The notes under the pieces: model-generated
Database searches by the model: none
Told to the model about the DNA's origin: nothing
What the model saw: only the letters and a program-made list of their open reading frames with translations
Position numbers and translations under genes: made by a program
In this document: positions 4,223 to 55,624 of the stretch, one piece after another
Position numbering within the stretch: position 1 is the first letter of the stretch
Layout: each line of letters opens with the position of its first letter
Assembly (NCBI GenBank): GCA_964035575.1
Contig: OZ037896.1
Span: 434,001-498,000, forward strand
Direction of reading: 5' to 3'
DNA from: Rhynchopus sp. YZ270_cl-10
Lineage: Eukaryota > Euglenozoa > Diplonemea > Diplonemida > Diplonemidae
Length of the DNA stretch: 64,000 nt

Positions 4223-4233
4223 TATTTTTTTTT

Positions 4234-5338: not shown

Positions 5339-5363
5339 CAAAAAAAAAGACAAAACAAAAAGG

Positions 5364-5394
5364 GTTTATAAGATAACTCTGTTTTGTCACCTTA
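5364..5394 (-). repeat. degenerate repeat family R1 copy
   Basis: Plus-strand GTTTATAAGATAA...TTTTGTCACCTTA keeps the two ends of R1 but lacks the central hairpin. Confidence 0.5.
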
Positions 5395-5641
5395 AAGACA
5401 ATGAAAAATGAAAATGAGCATCAAGAAAGAGAGAGAGAAAGCACACCACTGGCCCGCACTCTCCAAAAGAAATAACCTCTGGAAGAAAAAAACAATTACA
5501 GGGTTATTTAAAAATAAACTGCTTTGCCTTAGTTAAAAAAATGCGCTGGGGGAAACCTTTGTTCTTCGTTTTGCCATTTTTATTGTCGACTGACTGATTT
5601 CTTTTTGTATCAGGCCAGATTTTTCAATTGCGTGCGCTTTT

Positions 5642-5698
5642 TTTGAAAACTTGTTTGTTTGTATCAGTGTAGCCACCCCCTGAGGATGAGCTTCCACA
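5642..5698 (-). repeat. repeat family R3 copy
   Basis: On the plus strand: TTGAAAACTTGTTTG, then TATCAGTGTAG(C)CACC, then GAGGATGAGCTTCCAC. Shared with 19165-19217 and, in shorter form, with 33726-33762; both of those are in introns. Confidence 0.65.
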
Positions 5699-5990
5699 AA
5701 ACTATTTTAAAAAAACGCATTGTAAATCTGACAATCTGATTCATTAAATCAACAGAGTTAGACACTTGATATCCGATTTTTTTTTTTCCGAATTTCCAAA
5801 AAAACCCCTCCCCACCCTCCTCTCCCTCTCCGAAAATTTCGAGAACCAGCGTGATTCCCCCCCCTCCTCCTCCCCCATATTTATAAAAGAACCCCTTTCT
5901 CCCTTTTCGTTCGAAATACACCATTCCCCCCCCCCCCCCCCCCCACTGAGGTTCCCCCCCTAACTCTCAACCCTCCTCAAATCCATTTTT

Positions 5991-6053
5991 GATAAATTGT
6001 TGAAGTGTAGTTGCCTCGGGTTGTGTTGCCACAGTTGTGCAATCTCCACTGTC
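5991..6053 (+). repeat. repeat family R2 copy, near consensus
   Basis: Best R2 copy: GATAAATTGTTGAAG, GTAGTTGCCTCGGG, TTGTGTTGCCACAG, TTGTGCAATCTCCAC, then GTC, a T/C tract and CAG at 6080-6082. It begins 26 bp beyond the stop codon of the minus-strand mucin-like gene. Confidence 0.8.
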
Positions 6054-6078
6054 TTTTTTTTCCCCCATTTCATTCTTA

Positions 6079-9000
6079 TCAGAAATCATGATGCATTCCG
6101 AGGGATGGCAGCATTACGTCGTGAGATGGCTGCGGAAGCCCTTCTGAAGCAGGACTCATCACAGGGATGAATTCTGGGCTAAGCCCTGCCACGATAAGCC
6201 CTTCCCGTTCGTTCGCCTCTTCAATGCTAATTTTTTTCCGCGGGCTGCTGATGCCCCCTACGCCACTCCAGGCGCTTTCGGGGCTCACGCTAATGGTTGC
6301 CTGCACCACAGAGGACTTATACACGCCAAACGACACCACTAACTCATTCAACGGCTCCAAGGTGTCGTACCCCTCAAACGACAACGAAATCTTCCGCATA
6401 CTGTAGTTCCGCGCCTTTGACACTGCCTTCTTCAGATCCTTTACTGTCAGGTGCGCGCCGTATGGGACTTCAATTTCGAATCCATGGCCACGGATTTTAA
6501 TGTGCCCAGAATCCTTTTTGAGGCTTTCTCTTTCAACACGGAACTGCCGATACGCTCTCGACTCATGACAGGTTCGGTACAACCTGAAGAGGTCGGGGCA
6601 GGCGACATATACCTCTCGCGGGGTCAGTCTGGTTTCGGTTGCAGATCTCATATTGCGGACGGTTGACATCACAATGTTGAGAAGTGCGGAGGTCATATCA
6701 TCCCCGGTCACCTCTCTCGCAGACCCCCTGCGTGTGTATTGTAGAACCAGGTCGACGATGGCAGCACCTTTCACACCAATTTCTACACGGTGTCCAACAA
6801 GCGCTGCAAGGTCGTGCTCCTCGCTATCTAGGTCAAGAGAAGTGTCGGTCACAGCGTTGGAGGGTGAAGGGAGTCTGCCTGCGGCGGAGGCGGCCCGCAT
6901 ATGGGCCTTATACTTCTTGTATGCGAGGGTCTCCTTGAATGCGTCAGCGATGCGCAGCAGCTCTGCATGTTCCTCTTCGAAGCCCCCTCGTGAGGCGGTC
7001 CTCCCCTTCGCCGCTGCTGCCGATGCGTACTGCCGTTGTACAGCTTTCTTCGCACGCAGCACTTCAATGACCTTCACCATCTCCGCCACCTCCTGTGAAG
7101 TAGGGGATGTTGCCCCGCGCCATGGTCCCGGGGGTGGTGGTGCTAGTGCGGGGAAGTGCTGGACCTGCGAGTCCCCCATGCCTTGGGAGGAGATGCGGCT
7201 GTGCACCAACCCGCCAGCAGAGAGAGAGGGTGGCGCAAAGGAGTGGGTCTGCAGGAGGCTGTGTGCGGAGCGGGAGCGTTCGGGGTCCTCTGGGGTGAGG
7301 ATGCGTGGGGGGCGCTTTTGGCGTGGTGCGGCGGCGGGGGGTGCTGCTGCTGCTGCTGCTGCTGCTGCGACGGGAACCGCAGCTTCAGCCTGTTGGACGG
7401 CACGGATATCGTCGAAGGGGTTCTGAGGCTCCTGTGTAGGTGAGCGGTGTGGTTGTTCCTGTGGAGGCGACGGTGGTGGTAGTGGCGCGCCCTCCCTCGG
7501 CGCTGCGCCCGCACCGTACTCAACATCCTGCGGGGGGGTACGGTTGCGTGGGTTCCCCTCAATGTCCTCAAAGTCGTCGTGGCATTCCTCATCGCCCGTC
7601 TCGCTTACGCGGCGTGAGATGCGCCCTTTGCTGCGCAAATACAACACAACAATGACAACACTGCAGAGCAGCAGCACACCAAGCAGAGAGGCAATGAGGA
7701 TGATCGACGTAGTGTTGCTGAAGACGCCGTCGTCGCTGTCACCGGTGCTGTGGGAGAAGGTTGAAAAGGGGGTGTGTGGAGATGGGTGGTGTGTTGCATA
7801 CACAGTGGCCGGTGTCTCCGTGCTGCTGTCGACAGAGAGCACGCCTATGTTCGATGTGTCGACGCCGATGGCTGTGAGGTCCGTCACCAGCGCACTTTGC
7901 AGAACTGCCTCATTGTCGCCTGAGATGCGGGCGAGGACCTGTAGAGTGGTGTGTTGTGTTGTCGGCTTGCCTGTCATATAGAACTTCAGGAGTTGTGCAT
8001 CCTGTGTGCTGGCAGTGTTGTGGCATACCGTATCGCTAGGTTCCTCTGAGAACAGCTGGAACGTAATACGCGCCACACCCTCGGAGTCCGCCGTTTGCAA
8101 TGCAGCCGCAGATCTCTCAGCGGACAGAGACACAAGCTGTGGTGGGGTGTTGGGATGCAGGTCAATGTGGATGATGCGTCATACCTTCCAGACACCTCCC
8201 GTGCGATAGTAGTAAGGGTAGATGGCCATGTTCTCAACGAGTACCTGGGGGTGAGGTAGGTTTTAGATGACCAGACAAATACTGCGTGCTTAACTAACAG
8301 ACTAACATACCTGCATGAGTCTTGCCAGTGCCGCAATGATGACATTGCGGACCGAGCTCAGCCCCAAGTCCGCAATAGTGAGTCCGAACAGAAACAATTG
8401 CACCGTGATAGGCCCGTACACACTAGGTGTAGGCGTAGCAGGTGGTACAAGAGTGTCAGGAGCGACTGTGCTCGGCGCAGCAGTGGGTACACGCGTGACA
8501 ACAGCAGGTACATCAGTGGCAGGAATTCCTGTCGCAGGCACATCAGTGACGGGAATACCCGTATCCGGTGCCACAGTGTCATTCACTGGAGCCCCAGTGT
8601 CAGGCACATTTGTGTCAGGAACGTTGGTTTCGTTGACAGGTGTGTCAGTATCAGGAACATCGGTTTCGGGTACGTCAGTGTCGTTAACTGGTGTGTCAGT
8701 AATAGGCACATCCGTCATCGGTACGTCCGTGTCCGGGACAGCAGTATCATTAACTGGCACAGCAGTGTCTGGGATATCGGTCATCGGAACGTCCGTCTCG
8801 GGAACGTCAGTGTCATTGGCAGGTGACTCTGTCTCAGGCACATCCGTCTCGGGAACGTCTGTTTCGTTAACTGGTGCATCAGTCATTGGAACGTCTGTCT
8901 CAGGTGCGTCCGTCTCGGGAACGTCAGTGTCGTTGACAGGTACATCGGTGTCCGGCACATCCGTCATAGGAACATCTGTCTCAGGTGCATCCGTGTCGGG

Positions 9001-12000
9001 AATGTTTGTTTCGTTGACAGGTGAGTCCGTGTCAGGCACGTCGGTCATTGGTGTATCCGTGTCTGGAACATCAGTTTCGTTGACAGGTGAGTCTGTCTCA
9101 GTCGCATCAGTCACGGGAACATCTGTCTCAGGTACATCGGTGTCGGGAATGTCTGTTTCGTTGACAGGCGCATCAGTGTCCGGGACATCCGTCTCAGGTA
9201 CATCCGTGTCGGGAACATCGGTATCGTTGACAGGCGAGTCGGTCTCAGGCACATCGGTCTCGGGGACGTCAGTGTCGTTGACAGGAGCATCAGTGTCTGG
9301 GACATCCGTCATCGGTACGTCTGTCTCGGGAACATCAGTTTCGTTGACTGGCGAGTCTGTCTCAGGCGCATCAGTCACGGGAACATCTGTCTCAGGTACA
9401 TCGGTCTCGGGAATGTCTGTTTCGTTAACTGGTGAGTCCGTGTCAGGCACGTCGGTCATTGGCGCATCCGTGTCGGGAACATCGGTATCGTTGACAGGCG
9501 AGTCAGTCTCGGGAACGTCTGTCTCAGGTGCATCCGTGTTTGGAACGTCAGTGTCGTTGACGGGTGAGTCTGTGTCAGGCACATCAGTCATGGGAACGTC
9601 TGTCTCAGGTGCATCCGTATCGGGAATGTCTGTTTCGTTGACTGGTGAGTCCGTTTCAGGCACATCTGTCATTGGTGTATCCGTGTCGGGAACATCGGTA
9701 TCGTTGACAGGCGAGTCGGTCTCAGGCACATCGGTCTCGGGGACGTCAGTGTCGTTGACAGGAGCATCAGTGTCTGGGACATCCGTCATCGGTACGTCTG
9801 TCTCGGGAACATCAGTTTCGTTGACTGGCGAGTCTGTCTCAGGCGCATCAGTCACGGGAACATCTGTCTCAGGTACATCGGTCTCGGGAATGTCTGTTTC
9901 GTTAACTGGTGAGTCCGTGTCAGGCACGTCGGTCATTGGCGCATCCGTGTCGGGAACATCGGTATCGTTGACAGGCGAGTCCGTCTCAGGCACATCGGTC
10001 TCGGGAACGTCAGTGTCGTTGGCAGGCGCATCAGTGTCCGGGACATCCGTCATCGGTACATCCGTCTCAGGTACATCTGTCTCGTTGACAGGTGAGTCTG
10101 TCTCAGGCGCATCAGTCACGGGAACATCTGTCTCAGGTACATCGGTCTCGGGAATGTCTGTTTCGTTAACTGGTGAGTCCGTGTCAGGCACGTCGGTCAT
10201 TGGCGCATCCGTGTCGGGAACATCGGTATCGTTGACAGGCGAGTCAGTCTCGGGAACGTCTGTCTCAGGTGCATCCGTGTTTGGAACGTCAGTGTCGTTG
10301 ACGGGTGAGTCTGTGTCAGGCACATCAGTCATGGGAACGTCTGTCTCAGGTGCATCCGTATCGGGAATGTCTGTTTCGTTGACTGGTGAGTCCGTTTCAG
10401 GCACATCTGTCATTGGTGTATCCGTGTCGGGAACATCGGTATCGTTGACAGGCGAGTCGGTCTCAGGCACATCGGTCTCGGGGACGTCAGTGTCGTTGAC
10501 AGGAGCATCAGTGTCTGGGACATCCGTCATCGGTACGTCTGTCTCGGGAACATCAGTTTCGTTGACTGGCGAGTCTGTCTCGGGCGCATCAGTCATTGGC
10601 ACATCCGTGTCGGGAACGTCGGTGTCGTTTACAGGAGCATCGGTGTCCGGGACATCAGTCATCGGTACGTCCGTCTCAGGTACATCTGTTTCGTTTACAG
10701 GTGAGTTCGTCTCGGGAACATCAGTCTCAGGTGCGTCCGTATCGGGAACGTCAGTGTCGTTGACAGGCACATCGGTGTCCGGGACATCCGTAATTGGTAC
10801 ATCAGTCTCAGGTACATCTGTGTCGTTGACAGGTGAGTTCGTGTCAGGCACATCGGTCTCGGGAACGTCTGTCTCAGGTGCATCCGTATCGGGAATGTCT
10901 GTTTCGTTGACAGGCGCATCAGTGTCCGGGACATCCGTCTCAGGTACATCCGTGTCGGGAACATCGGTATCGTTGACAGGCGAGTCCGTCTCAGGCACAT
11001 CGGTCTCGGGGACGTCAGTGTCGTTGGCAGGCACATCAGTGTCCGGGACATCCGTCATCGGTACGTCTGTCTCGGGAACATCAGTTTCGTTGACAGGTGA
11101 GTCTGTCTCAGGCGCATCAGTTACGGGAATGTCGGTTTCATTTGCTGGTGTGTCGGTCTCAGGCACATCGGTCTCGGGAACGTCTGTCTCAGGTGCATCC
11201 GTATCGGGAATGTCTGTTTCGTTGACAGGCACATCAGTGTCCGGGACATCCGTCATCGGTACGTCCGTCTCAGGTACATCTGTTTCGTTGACAGGTGAGT
11301 CCGTGTCAGGCACGTCTGTCATTGGTATATCCGTGTCGGGAACATCGGTATCGTTGACAGGCGAGTCTGTCTCAGGCACATCGGTCTCGGGAACGTCAGT
11401 GTCGTTGACAGGCGCCTCAGTGTCCGGGACATCCGTCATCGGTACGTCTGTCTCAGGTGCATCCGTTTCGTTGACAGGTGAGTTCGTCTCGGGAACATCA
11501 GTCTCAGGTACATCCGTCTCGGGAACGTCAGTGTCGTTGACGGGTGAGTCTGTGTGAGGGACATCAGTCATTGGAACGTCTGTCTCAGGTGCATCCGTAT
11601 CGGGAATGTCTGTTTCGTTGACTGGTGAGTCCGTTTCAGGCACATCTGTCATTGGTGTATCCGTGTCGGGAACATCGGTATCGTTGACAGGCGAGTCTGT
11701 CTCAGGTGCGTCGGTCTCGGGAATGTCAGTGTCGTTGACAGGCACATCAGTGTCCGGGACATCCGTAATTGGTACATCAGTCTCAGGTACATCTGTGTCG
11801 TTGACAGGTGAGTTTGTGTCAGGCACATCGGTCTCGGGAACGTCTGTCTCAGGTACATCCGTATCGGGAATGTCTGTTTCGTTGACAGGCGCATCAGTGT
11901 CCGGCACATCCGTCTCAGGTACATCCGTGTCGGGAATGTCTGTTTCGTTGACAGGTGAGTTCGTCTCGGGAACATCAGTCTCAGGTACATCTGTGTCGGG

Positions 12001-17559: not shown

Positions 17560-18123
17560 TTACTGAAATCAACTCAGCATATAAAAAGAAGAAAAAACGG
17601 GTAAGCACAAAGAAAGAGGAGGGCTGAAAAAACCTTCTGGAGCAAGGAACGACCTGGCCGTGCGGTCGGGGAGCCTCAAGCAGTGAGCACGAAAGGTTTC
17701 TGCAAGGTGATGAAGAAGAAGGTAGAAATGCAGAACCCTGGGCAAACGTGACGCGTGGGTATGTGTGTGTCGTGTGCGTTACGTTTCCCTGTTGATGGCG
17801 TTTGTTTTTTCTGGGAGGGGTTGAGCGAAGTACCCAAAAAAAAAAAATTAAGGGGCGGGAAGAGGGTTCATTGTAAGTAGGGGTAAAGGAGGTAAGACTG
17901 TGTTGTGTACTACTATTTTGTTTGTTTTATCTTTTTGGTTCCGTGTACACGTACCACATGGCATGTGGTAAAAATTTGAAAGACGAACCGACCTTCCCAG
18001 CGGTACTTTCAAGTTGTGAAAAAGAAGAAGCTGACAATGTGCAAAAATAGTCCATGGAACGGTTTGAAGGACGAACCTCAGTGCTACAGTGTTTCACGTC
18101 AAGTCACCTTGAAGAAAAGGAAA

Positions 18124-18165
18124 GTTTTATAAGATGAACCCAAGTCTCTCATGTTTAGGCACCTT
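18124..18165 (-). repeat. repeat family R1 copy
   Basis: Plus strand GTTTTATAAGATGAACCC...TTTAGGCACCTTT. On the minus strand it is followed by a pyrimidine tract CTTTCCTTTTCTTCAAG, as in true intron 3' ends. Confidence 0.75.
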
Positions 18166-18185
18166 TAAACAAACGTAACTTGCCA

Positions 18186-18250
18186 ATACAAAGCCCTCTC
18201 ATGAGCAGTGTACTTTGCTACATGACCGGGTATACCGTGGGGGGTGGACC
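18186..18250 (-). repeat. repeat part B (companion of R1)
   Basis: Plus strand AATACAAAGCCCTCTCATG, then CAGTGTA and CATGACCGGGTATACCG. Similar blocks are at 28723, 30717, 31201 and 57537, each tens of bp from an R1 copy or R1-like remnant. Confidence 0.65.
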
Positions 18251-18853
18251 CCCCCAACCACGCAGTCTTCGATACATCCATTTTCGTCGTTTACATACAA
18301 AATAAAGAGAGTTTTATTAACATTTGAACGTGCGCGCACACAACGCAAAAGAAACATTGTGGTCCCAAAAAATAAAAAAGGGACATTTTTTTGAGTGCGA
18401 CACGCTACTATCTATTAGAGATACTGAACCATTGTCTTGAACGTCTTTTTTTCTGTTTCACAGTAGGGGCTAACAGTCATGCAAGCAGACAACCAAAAAG
18501 AAAAAAAAATCTGACAATGCAAACAGTCTCCCTACGCTCAAAATACCCCCCCCCCCCCCCTCTGCGAATATCGTAAAGAATGAAAGAAAAGTTGGGAAAG
18601 TTCTACTGTTTTTTTTTTTTGTTTTGTTTTTTTTTAGTTTATTTTGTGGGATTCACATCCCTATGAGGATCTATCATCTTTTTTTGTTTCGCCCAGCTTT
18701 GAGCGGAAATGATCCCTCTGTTCTACTTTATTTTAAAAGCGTCAAACTTGACGCATACCCACCCCATTCCCCCCCTCTCCCCATGGACAATGCCAAAGGC
18801 GCAGCTAGATATGCCCCTGACCCAGGAACGTGAATGAATTCCCTGCTGTTGCG

Positions 18854-20405
18854 CTACGCTCTGTTGTGCTTGACGCCCCCGTTGAACTGCACATTCATCG
18901 CCAGCGTTATCGCGTCGTCAAACCCGTCCATGCTGTCCCCAGTCCCAAAAAAAGAGTTCGCACAGTTCTTGAAACATCCCTTAGAGTACGGCAGTGTGTC
19001 GACGTCGTAGTTTTTGAGGTGGTCTCGTGTTGTCTGACAGTGTTGTTTGGTTTATTTTGATAATTTGGATTCCCATGGAGAGTCTTCCCTTTGAATAACT
19101 GTTAGCGTAATACTGTTGGACACTTTTGTAAGCGTTCCATTACGTTCTAACAGTTTTACCTTTTTTTGAAAACTTTGTTTTTGTATTAGTGTAGACACCC
19201 GAGGATGAACTCCACTACTTTTTTCTTCAAAACTTTGAACACATACCTGCGCCGTCAACGAGAGGTAGTAATGGTAGAGCGTCAACCCGCCTACGAAGAA
19301 ACACACCAGAGCCATGTACACCAGCAGGATGAGAACCGGGACCATGCTGGCCTCCTTCGCAAACTCTGACGCCGACATATGTCGTGCACGCGACTCCTGC
19401 AGCCAGTAGTGGCAGATGGTGCCGGTGATGTACCACGCAGACAAATGTGTGGTCGTCAAAAACCACAAAAAATGGCAGTAGTTGTTCTTCCCGACACAGC
19501 TCCCCACCCACGGACAGTGGTGGTCAAAGATCTCCACACAGTTATTACACTCAAAGCAGTGCTTTGCCCTGGGTGACCTATATGTATTACACGCCTTGCA
19601 GAACCACGCCCGCACCGAGCGACCTCTAAAATTCACATAAATTGCGGGCGGCGGTGAGCCTATTGGAGGGGTATTGTATCGGCGAAGAATTCCTGGGTCG
19701 GTTGAAGCTGTCTTTGACAGCAGAATGACTGGGACGAGACAGACTATTACCGCTATTATGTTCAACGCAGCGCTGAGATGCCGTGCCACGAATATCATAT
19801 ACACGATAAACGGCAGCAGAATCATACATTCTGCCAGAAGACAGAACCCCGTATTCGGACCGAGCACCCCCCACCTTCCACCACAAAGGAGAATGTTGTT
19901 GCCCCGATACAGATCCACCGGGCTGATCTCGCTGTGCGGGGCCTCGATGCTCACCTCGTCATCTTCGACCGACACTATTATATCGCACTCCGCCATGCTA
20001 TTGCTTCGTACATTCTGCCCCACCCCTACCCCAGACGCATACGACCCTGCCACCAACCCCCTTGGTAGTGGGTTCACCTTCTCGCTCGGCCCCGGAAGAG
20101 GGGCGTGCTGTGTACTATGATCCGAAGGGATGTGGTGGGCGGTCTCATTTACGGGACGAGAGGTGGATGCGGAGGCGGACACAGGGTTTGCGATGTTATG
20201 GGGCTCAGAGGGGCGCGCTGTAAGGGGAGAGAGAGAGGTGAGTAGTTGAGAAATAATGAACACCTCGGCGTCTTTTGTTGGTACGCTACCCACGTCAAAT
20301 ACGCAAAAAAAATTGTTTTTTTTCCTGATAAAATGTTGGAGTGTAGTTTTGCCGGTTGTAGTGCAATACCTACCATGCAGAGAAGGGTGTTTTGGTGTTT
20401 TTCAT
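18854..20405 (-). CDS. DHHC-type palmitoyltransferase (3 exons)
   Basis: S-acylates cysteines of membrane-associated proteins. Exons: 20405-20374, 20285-19247 and 19033-18854. Introns are 88 and 213 nt; the phases agree (32+1039+180 nt = 416 aa plus stop). The first exon adds MKNTKTPFSA and removes the need for a non-ATG start. After a long polar N-terminal region come two membrane segments (LLAECMILLPFIVYMIFV and a following one), the Cys-rich domain CKACNTYRSPRAKHC...C, and the catalytic DHHC at residues 265-268 in the usual HHCPWVGSCVGKNN context. Two more membrane segments follow. The third exon starts TTRD, a variant of the conserved TTxE motif, then PYSKGCFKN, matching the usual 'NPYxxGxxxN' region of the family. 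Intron 1 contains an R2 copy and intron 2 an R3 copy. Location: an internal membrane (family knowledge). The substrate is unknown. Confidence 0.9.
19165..19217 (-). repeat. repeat family R3 copy inside an intron
   Basis: Lies in intron 2 of the DHHC gene. Plus strand TTGAAAACTTTGTTTTTG, TATTAGTGTAGACACC, GAGGATGAACTCCAC. Confidence 0.75.
20327..20373 (+). repeat. repeat family R2 copy forming the 5' half of an intron
   Basis: Plus strand GATAAAATGTTGGAGTGTAG...GTAGTGCAATACCTAC. Its right edge is exactly the 5' splice site (GTAGGT on the minus strand) of DHHC intron 1. Confidence 0.75.
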
Positions 20406-20989
20406 GAGGGGGTGAGGTAGAGAAAAAAAGGGGAGAACAACCCCCCATCTACACACCTGTGTGTCCGTTGGAGCCGAGGGAAATGGAGCCAGCGAATTCG
20501 GGGTCGGTTTCTTCTGACAGCATCTTCTTGCGAGAGGGGCTGGGAGAGAGGTGCGGTCAGCAGCCCCCCTCCCCCCCCCCCCCCCCTCCCCCCCCCTTGA
20601 AGGAGCCCCCCCTTCTCGCACTGCGTGTGTACTGGTTTGGTTGTGTGTAGAGCAGGGGTGGGGGAGAGAGAGGGGGGATACAGAGACGAAAAAAAAAGTG
20701 AAAATGCTTGCCGAAATTCTTCAGCGGACGCAGTCATTGGCAATAAAGAAGAGTTTATAAGATGACCCTAAGCCTCTCGTTGAAAGGAATCGGAGGAACG
20801 GCAAGCTGGAGTAGGATGGATCACCCCGTTCCGAAGAGGAATGCAGCCACCCTGGCCTGCAGGACAACAATACTTCTGTGCAATCGGTTCCGGCCAGGAA
20901 TTAAGCGCTCCTAGACTACACCCCATTTCGTGGGTTCCATTCGAAAAAATAGATCCCAAAGGGGAAAAAGGAAGTGGGGGGGGGGGGTA
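20406..20989. other. intergenic region with C/G runs
   Basis: Contains a C-rich run at about 20566-20598, an R1 copy at 20753 and a G run at about 20976-20987. No coding sequence is supported. Confidence 0.55.
20753..20786 (-). repeat. repeat family R1 copy (partial)
   Basis: Plus strand GTTTATAAGATGACCCTAAG then CCTCTCGTTGAAAGG; the 3' half of the hairpin is missing. Confidence 0.65.
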
Positions 20990-21783
20990 GGGGGGGTCAA
21001 AAGGGGTAAACAAATTGAAAAAAATGAGTTTTTGTTCCTAAGTGCTAAAAAATGACCAAAACCAGAAAATACCACCCTCAGATGTCCAAAAATCCATCTG
21101 CGCCCGGTTTTGAGCAGTTTTGAGCCTCAAGAAGCCCCGTATCTGCTTTTTTCAAAAATGTACACACAACTTGTACCTGCCCACCCCCTGTAGGTAGAGC
21201 AACTCACACATCCATCACGCCTCAGTGTGAGCCAGGGGCCAGAAAAGCCCCCAAAGCCACATATTTTCACCCCAAAACCTATCCCGAAGGGTACCCAGGC
21301 TGTTTCGGGGTGTTTAGAGGGACTTGGTGGAACTTAGAACCATGTTTCAAAAGTGTCAAGGAACTCGTACCAAGGGTTTTCCCACCCAAGGTACTAAGTA
21401 CTGGTACCCTTTTGAAACATGGTTCTAAGTTCCACCAAGTCCCTCTAAACACCCCGAAACAGCCTGGGTACCCTTCGGGATAGGTTTTGGGGTGAAAATA
21501 TGTGGCTTTGGGGGCTTTTCTGGCCCCTGGCTCACACTGAGGCGTGATGGATGTGTGAGTTGCTCTACCTACAGGGGGTGGGCAGGTACAAGTTGTGTGT
21601 ACATTTTTGAAAAAAGCAGATACGGGGCTTCTTGAGGCTCAAAAGTGCTCAAAACCGGGCGCAGATGGATTTTTGGACATCTGAGGGTGGTATTTTCTGG
21701 TTTTGGTCATTTTTTAGCACTTAGAAACCAAAACTCGATTTTTATCATTTTGTTATCGCTTTTTGGGGGCTTTTGACCCCCCC
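20990..21783. mobile_element. foldback (long inverted repeat) element, TA duplication
   Basis: Two arms of roughly 350 bp are near-perfect reverse complements around a centre near 21380; the arms end GGGGGGGTCAAAAG / CTTTTGACCCCCCC. TA flanks both ends (20988-20989 and 21784-21785). The innermost paired part includes TTTGAAACATGGTTC. No reading frame of note. A transcript would form one very long hairpin. Confidence 0.85.
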
Positions 21784-21788
21784 TAGGG

Positions 21789-24502
21789 CAGTGCGCCTAG
21801 GAAACGGTCAACGTTTCCCAAAAGGAAACGTTGACGTTTCCCAGATTCTTGGGAAACGTTGAGGAAACGCTAAAGAAACGTTGCAAGGGGTTTTCTTTAG
21901 TTAACACATAGTATTTGACAAAACGCTCAAGACCCTCGCGAAAAGTCGCACGTCTGTGTATCCCCTCCCCGCTTGTTTTCTCCTCTCTCTTTTCTCCCCC
22001 GTTCTCCGACGCTTTCTGCACTTCAGACAAACACATTTATACCGTAGATTTGCATAATGCCCAAAAGGAAGGCGGATGACGCGTGGGACTACGTGAAGGT
22101 TGTGGAAGGTGCAGGGACAAAGCTCCGGAAGGTGGAGTGCACCTTTTGTGATAAGAAATTCTCAGTGTCGTCTGCGGGGAGGATCAAAGAACACCTCCTT
22201 GGGAAGGGGTCGTCAGTGACTGCGTGCTCCCCAAAAGACGACAAGAAGGATGAGTTTGAAATAGCAAAAGCGAAGTTGCAGAACACAGAGGCGAAGGTAA
22301 CGCAGCAGAAGGACAACAAACAAACGTCGCTAGACCCCTTTCTCACACGCGTAACCACCAAGATCGAAGCCATGCAGAGTATTAGGGACTTCTTCTACGA
22401 AGAGTGCATTCCCTTCCGGAAAGCAAAGAGCCGCTCATTCATGACGTTAGTCATGATGTTGTCGCGGATGTCTCAATCTGAGGCATCCGAGTTCAAGCCG
22501 CCATCCCCCGACGACCTTGCAGGCGAACTACTGCAGGAGTACGTCGCAGAGATGGACAAACTCTGCGAAAAGGGCATGCTTGCCGAAGCAAAGTTCGGGC
22601 TGTCGTTATTGTCGGACGGCTGGACTGATTGCAACGACAGGTCCATCTTTAACGGGATCGTGAGTACGTCCACATCGACGTACTATGTGGATAACAAGAC
22701 GAGCAAGAGAAAAACTATGGCCGCGATCGCAGACTATATCTGCTCCCTTCCTGTGCTTATCCCCGAGGAGGTAAGGTCGAAGCTGATACACATTTGTGTT
22801 GATGGGGCATGCAAGGAGGCCCTCCCCTTAATTCGAGCCCGGGTTGAGAAGGTGTTAACGTCTGTTTGTGTTCTCCACACCTATGATCTTCTTTTAGAAG
22901 ATCTAGGTGACTCCTCCAAAGCGAGCACAAAGGAAGAATTCAAATTCTTCAATGAAGTCGTGCACAAAGCTACGGCGTTGGCGAAGTGGGTGAAGACACG
23001 CCAGCGCTTGGTCACACTTCTTGAGGAGAGGTCCGACAAGAGGCTGCTGCTACCTGTGGACACTCGCTTTGGAAGCTTTTTTATCATGATGCAACGGTTG
23101 CTGGACTTGAAAGGGCCGCTGCGTGAGATGTTTGCTGGTGAAGGCTTTGGCGAGTGGAAGGCTCAGCTAAGGAGTGCGGATGCGAAGGCCACAGCTACCG
23201 AATGGGCGTCGGTTGTGCTCCAGGACGCCTTCTGGAAGAAGCTGGAGGGGGCGTGGCACATTGGAGATGTGATCTTCACCGTGTTGAAGCGTTACGACAA
23301 CGACGACGCGTCGGGGAACAGCGCTTCCGTGGAGTACGTGAAGGAGGGTTTCGCCGAGCTGAAGAAGAACATCGAAGCGCTACCCATAACTCAATTCCTC
23401 ACGGCAGCACGTAAGCAAAAAATTGCAGACAGGGTGAACACCAGATGGAAATACGTTGCAGCCCCCATCCACAACGCGGCACATGCACTGTCACCAACAT
23501 TCCGCCTGACAGCGAGGGATGACGATGAGTCTAAAGCAGGGCTGAAGGTATGTATGGCAGGTGACCTTCGCATAATCTGCTTTACTACAGGAGGCGCTGC
23601 TGCGGTATTATGATGAAGAGAAAGCACTGCAAGCTTTGGAAGAGTACGAAAACTGGAGCACGCAAAATTTCGGTGTACTAGAAGAAAAGGCGATCGCGTC
23701 GAAGTGGGGTGGACACAAGTGGTGGTCCATGTTCGGAGCAGAATGGCCTCTGCTCAAAGAGCTGGCAACAATCATGCTCGCTCAAACTTCATCTGTTGGT
23801 GCGGCTGAGAGAGGTTGGAGCTGCTACGGCGACGTAAAAACCAGGAAGCGCAATGGGTTGTCAGCCAGCACGGCTGACAAACTTACACGCATTCTGTACA
23901 ACAAGAGGAACACGTCCACCACCCACGTCGTGGCCGGTTACTGGGAGCTTGACGAGGTGGTGCTAGGAGACGACAGTGTGGATGGAATCGAAGGATGATT
24001 TTTTTTTTGTTTTTTTTTGTTTTTTTTTACGTTCTTTGTTTTCATTGTGTTTTTTTCCTGTTGAAACTGCGCATTTTCAACACCTACTTTTTTGTCTTTG
24101 TTGGTATCCAATAAAGAACCCCAGGTAGGTTGACCTCAAAAAAAAATCTCAGCGACTTGTTTTTTCTTGGGTGGGGTTGTAACAATCTCAGCTTGGGCGG
24201 AGTGCAGTATCTGTCCTCAGATCAGTTTGGAAGCCATCCCGACATCTTTTATGATGTCCCAACTGAGTATTGTCACCACTCATGTACAATTTTTTGTGAT
24301 GTTGTTCCTGTTGTGACGCTGTGGTGATAAAGACATCGTCGCGGGGGGTTTTTTTTTGTTTTCCCCGTTTCCCTTCACGTTTCCCAAAACCACGTTTCGT
24401 AACGTTTCCAACAAAGAAACGCCAACGTTTCCCGTTTCCCAACGTTTCCGTTTCCCAGTTTTTTGGGAAACGTGCGTTTCCCCACGTTTCCTAAAAGCAC
24501 TG
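21789..24502 (+). mobile_element. complete hAT DNA transposon
   Basis: The termini CAGTGCGCCTAGGAAACG and, inverted, CAGTGCTTTTAGGAAACG match the CAGTG-type hAT ends. The flanking 8-mers CCCTAGGG (21781-21788) and GCCTAGGG (24503-24510) agree at 7 of 8 positions, the expected hAT target duplication. Many GGGAAACGTT-type motifs lie just inside both ends (21800-21885 and 24365-24490), probably transposase binding sites. It encodes one transposase. The insertion sits right at the edge of the foldback element. Confidence 0.9.
22057..23998 (+). CDS. hAT transposase with BED zinc finger (2 exons)
   Basis: Exons 22057-23547 (497 codons) and 23591-23998, joined across a 43-nt phase-0 intron (GTATGT...CTACAG) that otherwise introduces a premature stop. 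Total about 632 aa. Residues 20-60 hold a BED-type finger (CTFCDKKF...HLLGKG...C) for DNA binding. The RNase-H-like core shows LLSDGWTD and VCVLHTYDLLLED, the usual first catalytic Asp region and the CxxH region. The C-terminal dimerisation segment is recognisable (SSVGAAERGWSCYGDVKTRK). No stop or frameshift interrupts it, so the copy may be functional. It is the only clear gene on the plus strand. It has about 170 nt of 5' sequence inside the element; an AATAAA-like signal (CCAATAAAG) is at 24110. Confidence 0.92.
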
Positions 24503-24607
24503 GCCTAGGGGGGGGGGGGGGGGGTACAATATAGTTTACACGGCGGGGTCCGCACACCCCGAGGGTCCGTAAAACGGCATGTTAGGACACTCCCTCTTTA
24601 CGGAGTG

Positions 24608-24727
24608 TCATTACGTACCCTAGGGTACGTAATTACGGACCCTAGGGTACGTAATTACGTACCCTAGGGTCCGTAATTACGTACCCTAGGGTCCGTAATT
24701 ACGGACCCTAGGGTACGTAATTACGGA
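24608..24727. repeat. 22-bp palindromic subterminal repeats
   Basis: About five tandem copies of a unit mixing ACGGACCCTAGGGT and ACGTAATTACG. One further set in the right subterminal region at 28108-28145. Confidence 0.8.
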
Positions 24728-25091
24728 GCCTCCCAGGGAAAGGGACTCTCGAAAAATTTTTTTTGCCCCCGTTTAGGGCTAATTTCGACGATTTGAGGCC
24801 ATTAAAAGCAAAATTTGGCACTTTTGAGCATCTGTGGGGGTCTAAAACGCAGTTTAGAGTACCACAATTTTTAGTGGGTTTTACCGAAAACAAGTCAATT
24901 TTTGGGCCGAAAAAAAAATTTTTTTGACATCACAAAATTGCCCTTGGTGGGCCTATGTGTCCTCAATGCTGGGCGAAAAATGCAAATATAGCTATTTTTA
25001 ACTTTCACACACAATTTTAACGGGTTTTACCTGTGTACCTGTGTATCTGTGTATCTGTGTACCTGTGTACAGAATATTTGTTGTGAAAGAC

Positions 25092-27942: not shown

Positions 27943-28572
27943 TGGAAGACGTCTTTGACAACTAACCGAGCTCACGACTTTTTTCGGTATGTAACTTGGG
28001 ATAGGCCCACATGATCATGGTCTATCATGTGGTACCTGTGTACCACTCGGTTTGCTCCCAGGGCTTTTCGACCAGCAGTCACACATCCAAACAGTGATTT
28101 CCCACCTTAGACCACGTAATTACGTACCCTAGGGTCCGTAATTACGGACCCGGGTCCGCACTTGAGGGTCCGTAAAGAGGGTCCGTAAAATTTACGGACC
28201 CTCGGGTGTGTGGACCCCGCCGTGTAGTTCGCGATATATTACCTCAAAAGGTAAAACAGAGAAACAAAGTAAAAATTCAACAAAAAAAAAAAAAAATAGA
28301 AAACGACTTCAGGATATGACAGTTAAATGAAATAAAGAAAACACTTTTTCGTTTATCGCACCGCAAAAGGTTTGTGTTTTTCACTGATGAATGTGAGTGA
28401 TGTTAGTGGAAAAACAATACGCTAAAGCGGGCACGCACCATCCGTCGTTTTCCATTTCTATTCGTCAATGCTTGATAACACAAAAAAAAAATCTAGGAAA
28501 GAAATACAACGTACAGTAAAAAACACAGACATACAAATACAATATCTCCACGAAGCTCCAAATGAAAGAAAC

Positions 28573-28614
28573 GTTTATAAGATGATCCTAAGCCTCTCGT
28601 GCTTGGTCACCTTA
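28573..28614 (-). repeat. repeat family R1 copy, near consensus
   Basis: Plus strand GTTTATAAGATGATCCTAAG then CCTCTCGTGCTTGGTCACC. On the minus strand the pyrimidine stretch GTTTCTTTCATTTGGAG follows. Confidence 0.8.
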
Positions 28615-28722
28615 TCATATTCGTTATCGCACAGCTTCAGCTGCGCTGGCTTTTGAAATGACCCCCTCTCCTTTCCCAAGAGCGTGGCAGAATATATTAG
28701 AAAAAAAAAAGAAAGGTAGAGT

Positions 28723-28785
28723 TGAAATACAAAGCCCTCTCGTGACAGTGTATATGACCGGCGTACCGGGGCGGACCCTAACCAA
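28723..28785 (-). repeat. repeat part B copy
   Basis: Plus strand TTGAAATACAAAGCCCTC, TCGTGACAGTGTA, TATGACCGGCGTACCGGGG. Confidence 0.65.
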
Positions 28786-28803
28786 AAAAACCACCATATT
28801 TTT

Positions 28804-30435: not shown

Positions 30436-30984
30436 GAGGAAGGAGGGGGAGGGAGCGAGGTCCTCTGTAGTAGTGGTGAGTGGTGTTTTTTTTGATATTA
30501 AATGATGTGCTTTCGGGGTATAGTATGGGCTGATTGTTGGGTCAGGGTGTGGTGAATGGTGTACGATGCAGAGAGCAGGGGTTTTTTTTTGTGTTATCGA
30601 ACCGCCCCGTTGTGTTGTATTATAGAGTTGCTGAGAAGGGAAACTGTAAGCAGAACATAGAGATTATCCTCCATCCTATTTTGGGAAGAGGTTGAATCCA
30701 TGATTTTTAAGTTGACTTGAAATACAAAGACCTCTCGTGAACAGTGTACCTCGGTGGATATGACCCGGGGTGGTATTAACTATTTTTTTCAAAGAAGAAA
30801 GGCATGCCTGGGGGGGAGGTAATAATACTGGGTAAAAATGGGGGTGTACTTATTTTTCTTTCAAAATAAAATGCAGAAATAGCATTTTTCTCCTAAGGAT
30901 GCATAAGAACAGCCACATTTCCGTTGTTCGCACCCCACGATACCGCAAAACCCCCCCTCCACCCCTCCCCTTCCCCACCCCGCA
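30436..30984. other. intergenic region between two minus-strand genes
   Basis: Contains the candidate acceptor region of the metacaspase-like gene (30455-30490) and a part-B repeat (30717). Nothing coding seen. Confidence 0.55.
30717..30775 (-). repeat. repeat part B copy
   Basis: Plus strand TTGAAATACAAAGACCTC, TCGTGAACAGTGTA, GATATGACCCGGGG; no good R1 partner nearby. Confidence 0.6.
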
Positions 30985-31892
30985 TTAGCTGGGTATCGAA
31001 CCCTCGATTTCGCCTTCTGTGTGTTCAAGGGCGTCCTTCTTCCGTTTTGCGTGGAGGATGCGCGCCTTTTGCAGAAGGTGCTCTGAAAGCTTCTCTGCCT
31101 GTAGCGTGGTTGTGTTTTTGTGTGGATTTCAAAATAAGAAAAGTTTATAAGATGATCCTAAGCCTCTCATGCTTAGTCACCTTTAAAAAAAAAGATGTGA
31201 TTGTGAAATGCAACCCTCTTGTGATAGTGTGGTGCAGGATACAACAAAATACACCCTTTGTGGTTTACATCTGACATCCCCCCTCTAGTCAGCGCTATCC
31301 ACAGCAGAGTCTCTTTCACAATCGGGGGGCTTTTTTGTTCCTTTGTATATCCACTTTCACATACCTGTCTGTCCATAACAAAGTTCTTATCCAACTCCAT
31401 TCTCCTGACAAGAAGCATATTCCGCATCAGCTCCATATCCCATGAGGTAAGGAACATTGGATCGTTCTGGAGCACCCACTGGTCGATCCCTCCGTACGAC
31501 TCCATGAGGGAGAGTGCGTCGTGCTCGATGGGCGGACGGAACTGGTGGTCGAGGAGCTCAGAGTAGATTGTCTTGGCATTGGCCTCGTCTGTCCACCCGT
31601 ACACAGTGGGGAAGTTGCGCCTGTGGTTGATCTGCTCAGACCACGACATCGTACGTCTATGCTGCACCCTCTTCCCAAACCACGTCGTCATAATAGTCTC
31701 AGGCCACATCTCCCCGAGGTCCCCCTGAATCTCCCCGGTCTCCGTCATCTTCTCCTTTATCGTTTTATAAGCGACCAACGCCTCATCCTTCGCGACCTTG
31801 TTCCATCCAAACCGTGTCCTTGTTTTTGTGAAGTCCGGAAACCGGAAGGCTCCCTGGGGGAACATCTGGTAGGGATTCAATCCAGGGGTCAT
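30985..31892 (-). CDS. bL28m-like mitochondrial ribosomal protein (2 exons)
   Basis: Exons 31892-31365 (176 codons) and 31098-30985 (37 codons plus TAA), total 213 aa. The 266-nt intron is phase 0 (CAG|GTATGTG...GCTACAG). The start is the first ATG; an upstream in-frame GTG was not used. The core 'LSLMESYGGIDQWVLQ' followed by DMELMRNMLLVRRM matches the bL28m pattern 'D..YGLD.YIL......GM.L...ML'. Upstream are the basic stretches RFGWNKVAK and RVQHRRTMSW, suitable for rRNA contact. The C-terminal exon is Lys/Arg-rich then acidic. If correct, it is a component of the mitochondrial large subunit. The intron contains R1 and part-B repeats, with R1 immediately before the acceptor tract. Confidence 0.65.
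31143..31184 (-). repeat. repeat family R1 copy inside an intron
   Basis: Located in the bL28m intron. On the transcript strand the stem CTAAGC...GCTTAG with loop ATGAGAG ends about 45 nt before the acceptor. Confidence 0.85.
31201..31245 (-). repeat. repeat part B copy inside an intron
   Basis: Plus strand TTGTGAAATGCAACCCTC, TTGTGATAGTGTGGTGCAGG, 17 bp after R1 and in the same bL28m intron. Confidence 0.6.
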
Positions 31893-33986: not shown

Positions 33987-34798
33987 TTTGTTATTATTTC
34001 CCCCTCAAAAAAAAAAAAAAAATCCAAAAAAAAAAGGGGGGAAAAAAATCACCCCTCCCCTTTGCCCCTCCTTTTGCGGACTGTGGTAGATAATGTGGTG
34101 TGTAGAAAATAGAAAAAAAAAATCACGAAAACGGGAGGGAATATTTGAGTAAATGTGAAGCACAGCAAACATCAAAAATTGATACACTTGACCCTTCTGT
34201 GCCTTTTGTTAATTTGAAATGTGTCATTTCAGGTTTTCAAAAAAAAGAGGGAAAACTGACCCTACAGGGGAAGGAAAATGTGTGGAAGAAAAGAGCAATG
34301 GGTATTTCTTTTTTTTTTTTTTTTCGATCATTCCTTGTGTTTTTTATCCAACAAATATCCTAACCTCGTCAAAAGACAGGCTGCTTTTGTGCACAAGAAC
34401 GCACCACGTATTTTTTTTTTTTGAAGAAAATAGGGGGAAAATATTGGATGACCTGTCCAGGCTCGGCAGAGAAATAGTTCTCTGGTGTTTGAAGGAGGGG
34501 GGAAATAGAAAAAAAAATTTTTTTTATAAGATGAACCTAAGCCTCTCGTGCTTAGTCACCTTTTAAAAATATCAGAATGGCGATGTCTCGTTGTGCTTAG
34601 GAACACCAAGAGAGAACGAAAGATTAAGATATTATTTTCAATCGAAAGAGGGAGTTTTTATCCACCAGCGTCGCCTCCTCTTTTTTTTGTAAAGAAAGAA
34701 TATCAAAGCCTCTGCTCAAGTCTCTCGCGATTTAACCTTTGAAGGAGAGAAAAAAAAACGGCCCCCTTTTTTGTGTATAGTCTTTGGCTAATATCTTA
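33987..34798. other. upstream region of the candidate spliced gene
   Basis: A/T homopolymers and an R1 copy at 34523. On the minus strand R1 is followed by a long pyrimidine tract and CACCAG (about 34484), a strong-looking 3' splice site with no exon I can assign. Confidence 0.5.
34523..34563 (-). repeat. repeat family R1 copy, near consensus
   Basis: Plus strand TTTTATAAGATGAACCTAAG, CCTCTCGTGCTTAGTCACC. Transcript-strand follow-on: T/C tract then AACACCAG. Confidence 0.8.
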
Positions 34799-35489: not shown

Positions 35490-35512
35490 GCTTAGTTGCC
35501 TGAACAATGACA

Positions 35513-39225: not shown

Positions 39226-39266
39226 TTTTTTTTTTTTTTTTTTTTTTTCAATGGGGGTAAAGAAAG

Positions 39267-39305
39267 GTTTATAAGATGAACCTAAGCCTCGTGCTTAGTC
39301 ACCTA
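39267..39305 (-). repeat. repeat family R1 copy
   Basis: Plus strand GTTTATAAGATGAACCTAAG, CCTCGTGCTTAGTCACC; 2 nt shorter in the loop. It lies about 42 nt upstream of the K+ channel ATG. Confidence 0.8.
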
Positions 39306-39730
39306 TAAAGGGGAGAGAGAGAGAGAGAAGAGAAGAAATGAAAGATTATCGCATGCAGTGTGTAGGTGGCATAGTGCGGAAAGGGATGTGGGGTTGTGGG
39401 GGGGAGGTTAAGATATATGTGGGAGATGAGTGTAGCGATTCTGAGGTACGGTGTGGGGGGTGGTGGTTGCGCAAAATGGCAAGATAGCAGGACGGACTGC
39501 AACGGTGGAGTTCGGTTCTGACGGAAGCCTTGTGTGATGTGCTCTCGGGTGATGGGGGTGGGGCGGGGTGGGTGGTGGTGGGGGGAAATCATAATAGTAA
39601 AGGGGAGAGGAATCGGTCGTAGGTGGTATACTCTTCTTTGAAGATCTGCTTTTGTTGATTTTTTTGGTAACTGAAAAGTTATTTCCAAAGCGAAAGAGAA
39701 AAAAAAAGTAACACAAAACCAACACCGGAA

Positions 39731-39808
39731 AGTGAAGTTGATAGTGCAAAACGCCTCTGGGGCGCAGGCAACTGACACTCCGCGGGTCGAAAACCCCCGG
39801 AGTGTTGC
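39731..39808. repeat. repeat family R4 copy with hairpin
   Basis: ACTCCGCGGGT and its partner ACCCCCGGAGT form a stem around CGAAA. The upstream GTGCAAAACGCCTC and CTGACACT match 5262-5338. Confidence 0.6.
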
Positions 39809-39861
39809 ACCTGCAAAAAAAATATTACTCATTTTTTAATGCAAAAACCCCCCTCCCCTCC

Positions 39862-53760: not shown

Positions 53761-54207
53761 GGTGCTAATTTAGTTTTCTTTTTGCTTTTCCGATTAGCGA
53801 AAAGCGTCAGCCAAGGCAAAAGGAGAAAAACCCCTCCTGTCACAACCAAACCAAAGACATATTTTTGAGGTTTCGTTTTAGGAAAATAATTTGCAGTGTG
53901 TGGTGTTGTATGTTTCCTGCTATATGATGTGTTAGGGGGGTGATGGGAGTAGGTGTTTAAAAAAAAAGAATTGGTGTTTTAGTTTCAGGGGAGAATCTTC
54001 CAATAGGATATATTTTCGTCTTTGTTTTGAAAATGAGGAATCGCGCAAAAAATGTGCACAATCTTTAAAACACACAATACAAACTTACCAAGGCAGAACA
54101 AAAAAAGGAGGAAAATGGCAAAGAAATCCTGGCCTGGAAAGGCCCACCTCTCTTAGTTGCCCTATTTTTCTCCCCCATCCACATTTTTTCCCTCTTTGGT
54201 TTCCCCT
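53761..54207. other. intergenic region upstream of the Ser-rich giant gene
   Basis: On the minus strand GTGACAG (about 53840) precedes a C/T-rich leader, and ATTAG lies 4 nt before the ATG; either could be an acceptor. Nothing else recognised. Confidence 0.5.
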
Positions 54208-55312
54208 CTAGAACTGCGGGGTTTGATGCTTCCCACCAATCGGGTGCCGATCGATTGGGGTCGAGAAGTTGCAGTTCCGTGCGAACTTGCTTTTTCCTGT
54301 ACCTGCGGTGGTGCCCTGCACAGACATGGTCATCCCGCTACGCGGGTTCCCTGAATAGACTGTGATTGGCTCGTCTAGGGTGTAGTCAAATGAGTCTATG
54401 GGCCCGGTTGTGGTGAGGTCCTCTGTCTGCGACATGTTGAGTCTGCTTTTGTTCATGCATTCAAGCGTGCCCAGCGGCGGCTCTGTTGGGTTCACGTTCC
54501 CTGTGCTTGAGTTGTACGAGGTGCGGTACTCATGCGGCGCAGGCTTCGGAACGTGCAGTGAGCGTTTTGCGGTGTCGATGACCTCGTCGACCTGCCGGCC
54601 ACGTCTGCTGCCAAACTTCTCAGGGCGGAAGGCGTTGCAGTCGGCGTTCTCAGGTGTGTAATGTTGTGCTGTGGTCTGTAAAGTGTGCGAAAAGGGGAAT
54701 TGATTGTTTTTTTTTTGTTTTGCGCTCTTTTTGGTGGTCTTTAAAAATATACTGTGGAAAGGGGAAGACATGAACCACACAGTGACATAGGGGGGTAGTT
54801 TCAAAAGGGGGGTGTCATTTGGGGGGGGGGTGTTCCCCCAGGGGAAAGTGGGTCAGTTTTGCTTAAAGAAGGTTGTGAAAGTAACAGAGCAAACCCATAC
54901 TGTAACATTCATCTTCATATTCGGGTTGAGCTCAGGCGAGATGAGGAACTTCGTCGACTGGAACCCACCCTGTCCTCGCATGGTGCCTGTTGGGGGGAAA
55001 TAAGAGGAGAAAAATTTATAAGATGAACCTCTCATTGACGGCACCTCCAACTGACCTACCGTTGGATGGTGGAGACCACAGAGATGGCGGTTTTGCTTTT
55101 AAAGAGAACATACGTTCGCCGGCAATGACCTTGTGCACTGCAGGCTCCTCACCGCCAGGAGTGCACAGCGAGGACTCTTCGTACCAGTTGCCCATGAGGC
55201 ATCCCTTCTTAGCACGGTTGTACGACCTCTCGTCCACCCAGTTCCCGTGGGGCTGGTAGGCATCGATCTTGTTGTACGCACGCTGGCGGGTGTCCGTTCG
55301 GTTGAACGCCAT
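54208..55312 (-). CDS. conserved-looking 268-aa protein, perhaps ciliary (3 exons)
   Basis: Exons 55312-55060, 54986-54901 and 54675-54208; phases 1 and 0 fit (253+86+468 nt). Introns: GTAGGT...CCAACAG and GTATGG...TTTACAG. Hydrophilic, no signal or membrane segment, rich in Asn, Tyr and Pro. Near the start it has GNWVDERSY and MGNWYEESSL, a repeated GNW-x-(D/E)-E motif that resembles short repeats in axonemal microtubule-associated proteins (weak inference). The Tyr/Pro-rich C-terminus (KFARNCNFSTPIDRHPIGG) would fit a filament-lining protein. I do not recognise the family. The 73-nt intron 1 consists largely of an R1 copy plus the pyrimidine tract. A further R1 copy at 55386 followed by CCACCAG (about 55355) suggests a 5' UTR acceptor. 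Confidence 0.75.
55014..55048 (-). repeat. repeat family R1 copy inside a 73-nt intron
   Basis: Plus strand TTTATAAGATGAACCTCTC, TTGACGGCACCTCC; it makes up about half of intron 1 of the 268-aa protein gene. Confidence 0.75.
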
Positions 55313-55624
55313 CTGCTCTTTGCAGCAATGTCAATCTGTGTGTCTCCTCGTGTAAACCTGGTGGAATTGTAAAAAAGAAAGAAACGTTTATAAGATGATC
55401 CTCAGCCTCTCTGTGCTTGGTCACCTTGATGACAATGAAATTGCAGATAAAACTCCGCCTCTATTCAGAGTCACCACATAGTCAAATGACTCCGTTCACA
55501 ACTTCATACTAACAGAACCATGAAGCATTCCCTCCCAGACGAGGGAGCGTAGATGGTAAACATCACAAAGAAAAAGTGGTAATAAAAACAAAGTGGGGGA
55601 GGGGAGTGGTGGGGGGGGGACCTA
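55313..55624. other. intergenic region with R1 and G-rich DNA
   Basis: Contains the putative 5' leader acceptor of the preceding gene, R1 at 55386 and a G run at 55611-55619. A sequence near 55440-55500 recalls R1/part-B wording (CTCTATTCAGAGTCACC) but is too diverged to call. Confidence 0.5.
55386..55428 (-). repeat. repeat family R1 copy upstream of a gene
   Basis: Plus strand GTTTATAAGATGATCCTCAG, CCTCTCTGTGCTTGGTCACC. Transcript side: GTTTCTTTCTTTTTTAC, then CCACCAG and a leader of about 40 nt to the ATG. Confidence 0.8.

Follow-up and report, generated by a model that had tools for sequence, protein, structure and literature searches.

The DNA analysed here is a window of 64 kb (positions 434001-498000 of one contig, in a genome of 152 Mb and 126 contigs that was searched as a whole), and our subject is a short structured repeat, R1, dispersed among its genes. 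The host genes that could be named in the window, encoding bL28m, a DHHC protein, a cyclic-nucleotide-binding channel and a CFAP143-like protein, lie on the minus strand, like R1. An initial annotation had listed nine R1 copies together with two further repeats, R2 and R3, and proposed that they are introners, spreading as ready-made introns, or else conserved splicing or RNA-processing structures. The covariance-model search that it called for, run with filters off and a model built from 17 R1 copies, returned nine window matches at E<=0.053, all on the minus strand and at the positions already annotated, with four weaker matches beyond them (E 0.13-0.89); one of these four, on the plus strand at 34526-34576, is the opposite strand of the palindrome at 34511. 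The motif CATCTTATAAA, allowing up to one mismatch, likewise occurs nine times in the window, against a mean of 0.57 in shuffled sequence.

Three of the nine copies lie just before a 3' splice site, all acceptors being inferred from sequence. The copy at 55378..55429 has its TATAAAC end 28 nt before the AG at 55359-55358, inferred to be where the CFAP143-like gene has its trans-splice acceptor, and a weak, degenerate R1-like tail (55006..55049; E 0.053) lies within intron 1 of the same gene (54987..55113, minus strand; GTATGTT...CAACAG, 127 nt), its TATAAA end 28 nt before the end of the intron. The third, at 31135..31185, is contained in the bL28m cis-intron (31099..31364, minus strand; GTATGTG...CTACAG, 266 nt), and its TATAAAC end precedes the intron end by 44 nt. 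Both R1-bearing introns were described previously, and homology of the spliced proteins agrees: removal of the bL28m intron raised the match to chain 7aoi_A1, which we take to be of trypanosomatid origin, from 37.4 to 44.8 bits and extended it past the junction, and the CFAP143-like protein assembled from three exons matched a T. brucei protein (1.2e-15) and CFAP143 (4.9e-12), the alignment crossing the exon 2/3 junction and the exon 1/2 junction falling between two aligned stretches. This gene, originally given 268 residues, was remodelled as 250.

The other six copies have varied surroundings. One, with a loop 2 nt shorter (39259..39307), stands 33 nt before the ATG (39225) of the open reading frame (ORF) for the cyclic-nucleotide-binding channel; another (34511..34564) lies in non-coding sequence and leads into a pyrimidine tract and CACCAG. 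The copy at 28565..28615 is preceded by 42 nt (28611-28652) that match the ORF2 end and 3' untranslated region (UTR) of the long interspersed nuclear element (LINE) described below, and is thus a longer, 5'-truncated LINE copy. That at 20745..20771, upstream of the DHHC gene, is truncated at its 5' side within the hairpin; 18117..18167 is degenerate and adjoins an R2 copy; and 5356..5395, recognised by the covariance model and by folding, is a weak, degenerate R1-like tail with an internal deletion that keeps the fold. A pyrimidine tract and AG do follow the copies annotated at 55386, 34523, 18124 and 28573, the last tract being short.

The annotated stem CTAAGC/GCTTAG is present as part of a longer one, in which ATAAGGTGA-CTAAGC pairs with GCTTAG-GN-TCATCTTAT to give 15 bp with a GN bulge that accommodates the motif position free to vary; the hairpin is followed by the U-rich AAACUUUUCUUU. 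Its folding energy is -15.7 kcal/mol (z -3.78). Two-sided changes occurred in 11 of the 15 pairs among 121 distinct relatives, none of 500 shuffles reached any of five measures, and slid-alignment controls scored lower, with the proviso that the alignment was fitted to the 15-bp structure and these covariation figures therefore lean towards it. Several relatives with different arm sequences fold alike. Across the genome the motif was found at 3,876 places (up to three mismatches in 34 positions), and at none with the reversed pattern as control. At the bulge, A, G and T all occur and C is rare (20 exact C-type matches genome-wide). A reading of TATAAA as a promoter was dropped, since R1 was found within introns and at LINE ends.

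The source of R1 became apparent from sequence shared by its copies, which extends upstream for a variable length and can be translated as the terminal part of a protein. A 105-residue query taken from this upstream sequence gave 150 scored matches among 488 candidates, many of them closing open frames of 1462 residues. The matches are truncated step by step, from those beginning at query residue 5, 13, 17, 24, 33 and 41 down to one beginning at 71, and the shortest, of a few tens of residues, keep the same end point; such a shared 3' end, with 5' ends cut back to differing extents, is characteristic of a LINE. The entire element measures approximately 6.5 kb and has frames of 644 and 1462 residues, measured from stop to stop (one copy being read through), the larger encoding an APE-type endonuclease and a reverse transcriptase (Pfam Exo_endo_phos, 1.9e-13; RVT_1, 5e-24). 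Its 3' UTR consists of 13 nt plus R1. All ten 1462-residue copies that were fetched continue as ...TGATAAG-GTGACTAAGCACGAGAGGCTTAGGATCATCTTATAAACTTTTCT, with CTTTTCT after R1 and no shared sequence beyond it, diverging into a flank that begins T-rich. The family thus spans a range from full-length LINEs down to tails of about 50 nt, and has the conserved 3'-terminal stem-loop, without poly(A), of the stem-loop LINEs. Named relatives of its proteins are mostly from Diplonema papillatum, the best-scoring being 47% identical. In all likelihood, then, R1 is a stem-loop from the 3' terminus of a diplonemid-like LINE, and most R1 copies are retroposed tails only; the LINE itself is young-looking.

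A second hairpin LINE has a 1476-residue frame with the same endonuclease and reverse transcriptase domains, and its tail, unrelated in sequence to that of R1, ends in a hairpin of its own followed by ACTTCACTTT. We draw the link to LINEs for R1 and for this second-family tail, and not for R2, R3, R4 or a third tail-like family. Both LINEs are also alike at the other end. The 1462-residue LINE has a sharp common 5' end, CTGTACTTCATTG, in three of three copies, identical to the final 13 nt of the spliced leader at one locus (L041), and the 1476-residue LINE begins with (C)TGTACTTCATTG, again in three of three. We observed that the first base of the leader remnant is identical in the two families or differs by one position (loci L075-L077 and L110-L112), as if reverse transcription stops at one leader nucleotide; the trypanosome spliced leader carries a modified uridine near that position. 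Full or partial leaders were also seen directly before possible open frames at L041, L039 and L040, as in retroposed trans-spliced mRNAs. The spliced-leader end of kinetoplastid/diplonemid type occurs at 740 genome places (up to one mismatch) and the dinoflagellate leader, searched genome-wide with the same tolerance, at none, and a dinoflagellate host was rejected on this ground. The closest solved structure to the bL28m protein is trypanosomatid bL28m. Because of the spliced leader, bL28m and the LINE relatives, we regard the host as diplonemid-like.

Sixty-two R1 copies were aligned at GTGAC, the base of the hairpin, and compared upstream with the LINE. The match extends for 3-5 nt in 35 copies, for at least 7 nt in 15, and for 0-2 nt in 12. 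In 47 copies with little LINE extension (up to 5 nt) the sequence passes directly into a T-rich flank, T accounting for 66-81% at positions -4 to -11. A short interspersed nuclear element (SINE) with a separate, Pol III-derived head was considered, and no head was seen; within the window, where tRNA-like heads were sought, there was no tRNA gene and no Rfam family at R1 (E<=0.5). Long target-site duplications were rejected as a general feature, only 3 of 61 copies lying above the 99th percentile of the null. As a separate observation, direct repeats of 57, 81, 233, 58 and 28-37 bp closely flank R1 at loci L030, L051, L029, L055 and L053, respectively; they are longer than usual duplications, and further repeats lie farther off.

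The orientation of these elements follows a strict rule. A strand map was assembled from 525 features on 97 contigs, comprising 218 R1 places (among the matches listed, and so not a random draw from the 3,876), 100 second-family tails, 66 LINEs of the 1462 type, 14 of the 1476 type and 127 kinase genes, and each feature set was predicted from the other sets. Kinase genes were used because a crude codon model proved too weak to orient loci (sense exceeding antisense in 20 of 34). The LINE entries are 80 of 150 counted, the other 70 standing outside the counts with none off the map by eye, and the kinase entries are 127 of 131, second pieces of one gene being left out. From the 398 hairpin LINEs and tails entered, 221 could be placed, and all 221 lie on the strand of the host genes: R1 118:0 (same:opposite; 100 unplaced), the second-family tail 54:0 (46 unplaced), LINE-1462 43:0 (23 unplaced) and LINE-1476 6:0 (8 unplaced). 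The kinase genes themselves gave 75:0 (52 unplaced). Within loci oriented by R1, or by the 1476-residue LINE at L080-L084, the pattern extends to R2 (13:0), the second-family tail (16:0, up to five of these at L080-L084 not being independent), the third family (9:0), R4 (14:0) and R3 (7:1), with two other repeat families at 5:2 and 2:1.

Other reverse-transcriptase families, separated by score and open-frame length and not by alignment, gave 41 same, 30 opposite and 50 unplaced among 121 matches; these are 121 of 150, 27 others being the R1 LINE (13:0 in this set) and two being left out. The difference between 221:0 and 41:30 is significant (Fisher, 1.3e-21). A poly(A)-tailed family, 1364, whose poly(A) end was present in three of three copies, stands at 5:11, with 1320-type at 7:7, 1862 at 5:5, 3381 at 5:2 and 986 at 2:2; families leaning to the gene strand are 1747 (4:1), 1900-type (6:1), 2034 (4:1) and 1597 (2:0), and 1057 has a single copy (1:0). 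A putative DNA transposase, placed on a hand-made map, gave 4 same, 15 opposite and 15 unplaced among 34 (of 45, weak or partial matches being left out). The strand rule is not general to the mobile DNA of this genome. As to the map itself, 96 of the 97 contigs keep to one strand or switch once, from minus to plus, and each chromosome resembles a single pair of giant gene arrays transcribed outwards; where sampled, every contig but one (C2) switches at most once, its minus part lying to the left and its plus part to the right. Contig C2 is divided into a plus, a minus and a second plus domain, its kinases were placed in the first plus domain only, and a map drawn from kinases alone gave nine 'opposite' R1 copies, all in C2, whose minus domain has no sampled kinase.

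These results bear on what R1 is to its host. Were it an introner, each copy would be a whole intron, from AAG|GTGAC to a U-tract and AG, inserted in genes and spliced out entire; AAG|GTGAC does resemble a 5' splice site and TTATAAAC a branch site, a pyrimidine tract and AG come after many copies, and all placeable copies are in sense orientation. Yet both homology-supported R1 introns have GTATGT as their first bases, 179 and 64 nt ahead of R1, and do not start at its GTGAC, none of 40 R1 copies lies in coding-like sequence (by the crude codon model), the length shared from GTGAC by pairs among the 62 copies (median 46 nt) ends short of any 3' splice site, and LINE copies have R1 as their end. 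We consider the introner proposal of the initial annotation very improbable; what survives of it is a mobile, structured, sense-oriented repeat with a pyrimidine-rich 3' end, three window copies of which immediately precede an inferred 3' splice site. Its alternative, a conserved splicing structure, is needless as an explanation of the hairpin, and single copies may nevertheless serve splice acceptors. In a stronger form this alternative would make R1 a selected host element for splicing or RNA processing at cis and trans acceptors, merely captured by the LINE. The strand rule, the hairpin covariation and the position of three copies in the window, 28-44 nt ahead of inferred acceptors, would suit such an element, as would the nearness of R1 to coding-like sequence, 24% of 25 copies against 9% of 180 other T-tracts having such sequence no more than 150 nt downstream (Fisher p 0.034, crude coding model). 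It is difficult to reconcile with copies, picked by their 3' half, in which the 5' arm is changed and the 3' arm intact (L088, L091, L092, L097, L098, L101 and L104), with adherence to the strand rule by LINE copies having intact frames (43:0), and with the unrelated tail of the 1476-residue LINE, which nevertheless obeys the same rule; we judge host origin improbable.

A stem-loop LINE that primes in transcribed T-tracts is the most likely account of these features, its sense-only insertion being the surprise. By this account the LINE RNA would be excised from a polycistronic transcript by trans-splicing, and its reverse transcriptase (ORF2) would, by analogy with stem-loop LINEs, recognise the hairpin. 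The U-rich RNA end could then anneal to a template-strand A-tract, where synthesis of complementary DNA would begin, and tail-only copies would result if RNA upstream of the protein-bound hairpin were lost or left uncopied. Were priming open only on the template strand of transcribed T-tracts, perhaps due to weak rU:dA hybrids, insertion would be sense-only, and as T-tracts also serve cis and trans splice acceptors, R1 could land just before acceptors and add to their pyrimidine tract. Access coupled to transcription or to replication may underlie the strand purity. For the two LINE families we propose, tentatively and at somewhat less than even odds, that integration is coupled to transcription, the U-rich RNA end priming on template A-tracts exposed by the polymerase at pyrimidine tracts, which would give a mobile pyrimidine-tract module of about 50 nt, oriented for splice acceptors, genome-wide and without antisense copies.

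Several findings weigh against the account of R1 as a LINE tail with sense-only priming, or complicate it. Tails begin at (T)AAG|GTGAC, the hairpin base, in 35 of 62 copies and do not form a random ladder; therefore plain 5' truncation is insufficient. Evidence for target-site duplications is weak: permutation p values in three registers were 0.032, 0.114 and 0.0002, a register-free search gave 0.075, and the 7-8-nt T-rich repeats at three full-length copies were seen by eye only, their alignment not standing clearly above mismatched pairs. The bulge base is A in all ten LINE copies and A, G or T in tails, therefore further source LINEs must exist. T-runs of at least 8 exceed those of the antisense strand by about 1.5:1 on the sense strand (263 versus 176), so that a preference for T-tracts alone predicts many antisense copies. 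The lean of 1747, 1900-type, 2034 and 1597 to the gene strand suggests that the rule may reach beyond hairpin LINEs, family 1364 being the only one among the other reverse transcriptases to have its 3' end inspected. Finally, R2 obeys the strand rule yet hardly folds alone (-2.7 kcal/mol).

Orientation bias of retrotransposons is normally partial and read as selection, and the main rival on strand purity is that insertion is random as to strand and selection removes antisense copies, whose tails would supply pyrimidine tracts with decoy AGs. Read directly, R1 does contain five AG dinucleotides in its reverse complement, and in Leishmania the SIDERs of gene clusters have a milder sense excess of about 4:1, antisense copies being frequent in spacers, according to the portions of the report consulted (PMC2689281). 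Against such removal, the kilobase-long poly(A)-tailed family (5:11) and the DNA transposon (4:15) persist in antisense, near-identical hairpin LINE copies already stand at 43:0, and by the crude model 19 of 25 R1 copies have no coding-like sequence in the 150 nt downstream; we hold selection to be a possible but unlikely cause. Much the same standing is given to a third reading, in which strand follows the direction of replication, priming occurring from Okazaki 3' ends at A-tracts on outward-moving forks: the pattern of 96 of 97 contigs fits a central origin as well as it does divergent transcription, no observation speaks directly against it, and with the kinases of C2 confined to its first plus domain, the replication and transcription readings are inseparable.

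The remaining repeats of the window, found by the same type of search at E<=0.01, are fewer than first reported, the nine R1 copies standing, with four R2 copies in place of five and two R3 copies in place of three. The R2 copies, all on the minus strand, lie at 18184..18229 (sharing the CACGAGAGG or CATGAGAGG motif with R1), 28720..28760, 30713..30753 and 57534..57571, and the R3 copies, also minus, at 19165..19218, in the sequence after the DHHC exon, and 5642..5694. A tail match places one copy of the second hairpin LINE family (1476-residue frame) at 39730..39784 on the minus strand. A further family, AGTGGAGATTGCACAACTGTGGCAACACAACC... (1298-6050, minus strand), often followed by A-runs, is nearly sense-only (14:1). 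A putative BED-finger transposase ORF, recognised by eye, occupies 22057-23613 on the plus strand and has 33 near-identical full or nearly full-length copies elsewhere; this is the transposase of the strand comparison, its placed copies running mostly against the host genes (4:15). A dense array of palindromes (GTAATTACGTACCCTAGGG) was seen at 24607-24731, and at 20999-21763 an inverted repeat of 358 bp whose halves are separated by 49 nt.

Comparison with known systems sets R1 among, and apart from, several of them. UnaL2 is a stem-loop LINE with short 3' tandem repeats. Zebrafish LINEs of this stringent type, as far as the sections available describe them, similarly have a 3'-terminal stem-loop, recognised there by their own protein (PMC4176376; also PMC5135761), and short repeats that share the LINE 3' end (PMC4176376); the R1 LINE differs in its U-rich end and spliced-leader 5' end, and its tails in being tail-only with no SINE head seen and in having no antisense copy among those placed. 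The SIDER/ingi/L1Tc retroposons are likewise euglenozoan, LINE-derived short repeats in thousands, SIDERs numbering 1,853-1,986 per Leishmania genome with a sense excess in polycistronic units, in the excerpts at hand (PMC2689281, PMC2424063); their hallmark is at the 5' end (Pr77, 79 nt), whereas the shared R1 unit is a 3' end (118:0) and the 5' end of its LINE is a spliced-leader remnant, the Pr77 sequence itself not having been searched for. Introners resemble R1 as short mobile intron repeats with a pyrimidine tract, in the accessible part of one account (PMC9860276), and R1 is unlike them in that it makes up the intron in neither of the two cases examined. Retrogenes of dinoflagellates also carry a 5' spliced-leader remnant on retroposed copies, in what could be consulted of PMC12014239, and here that tag sits on a LINE. 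LINE-like reverse transcriptases of Diplonema papillatum are up to about 50% identical to that of the R1 LINE in the aligned region, and the host is alike in being polycistronic and trans-splicing; the tail hairpin, strand rule and tail-only copies go unmentioned in the parts of its genome paper that were available (PMC10161547). Nor were such tails, or a complete strand rule, found in the literature on diplonemid retrotransposons and introners and on polypyrimidine or splice-acceptor orientation of non-long-terminal-repeat elements, so far as its texts were accessible, subscription journals being thinly covered.

The contrast between hairpin LINEs and tails (221:0) and a poly(A)-tailed family (5:11) within one host makes this genome its own control for integration coupled to transcription or replication. 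It also indicates that a polycistronic, trans-splicing genome can gain ready-made pyrimidine tracts near its splice acceptors without introners.

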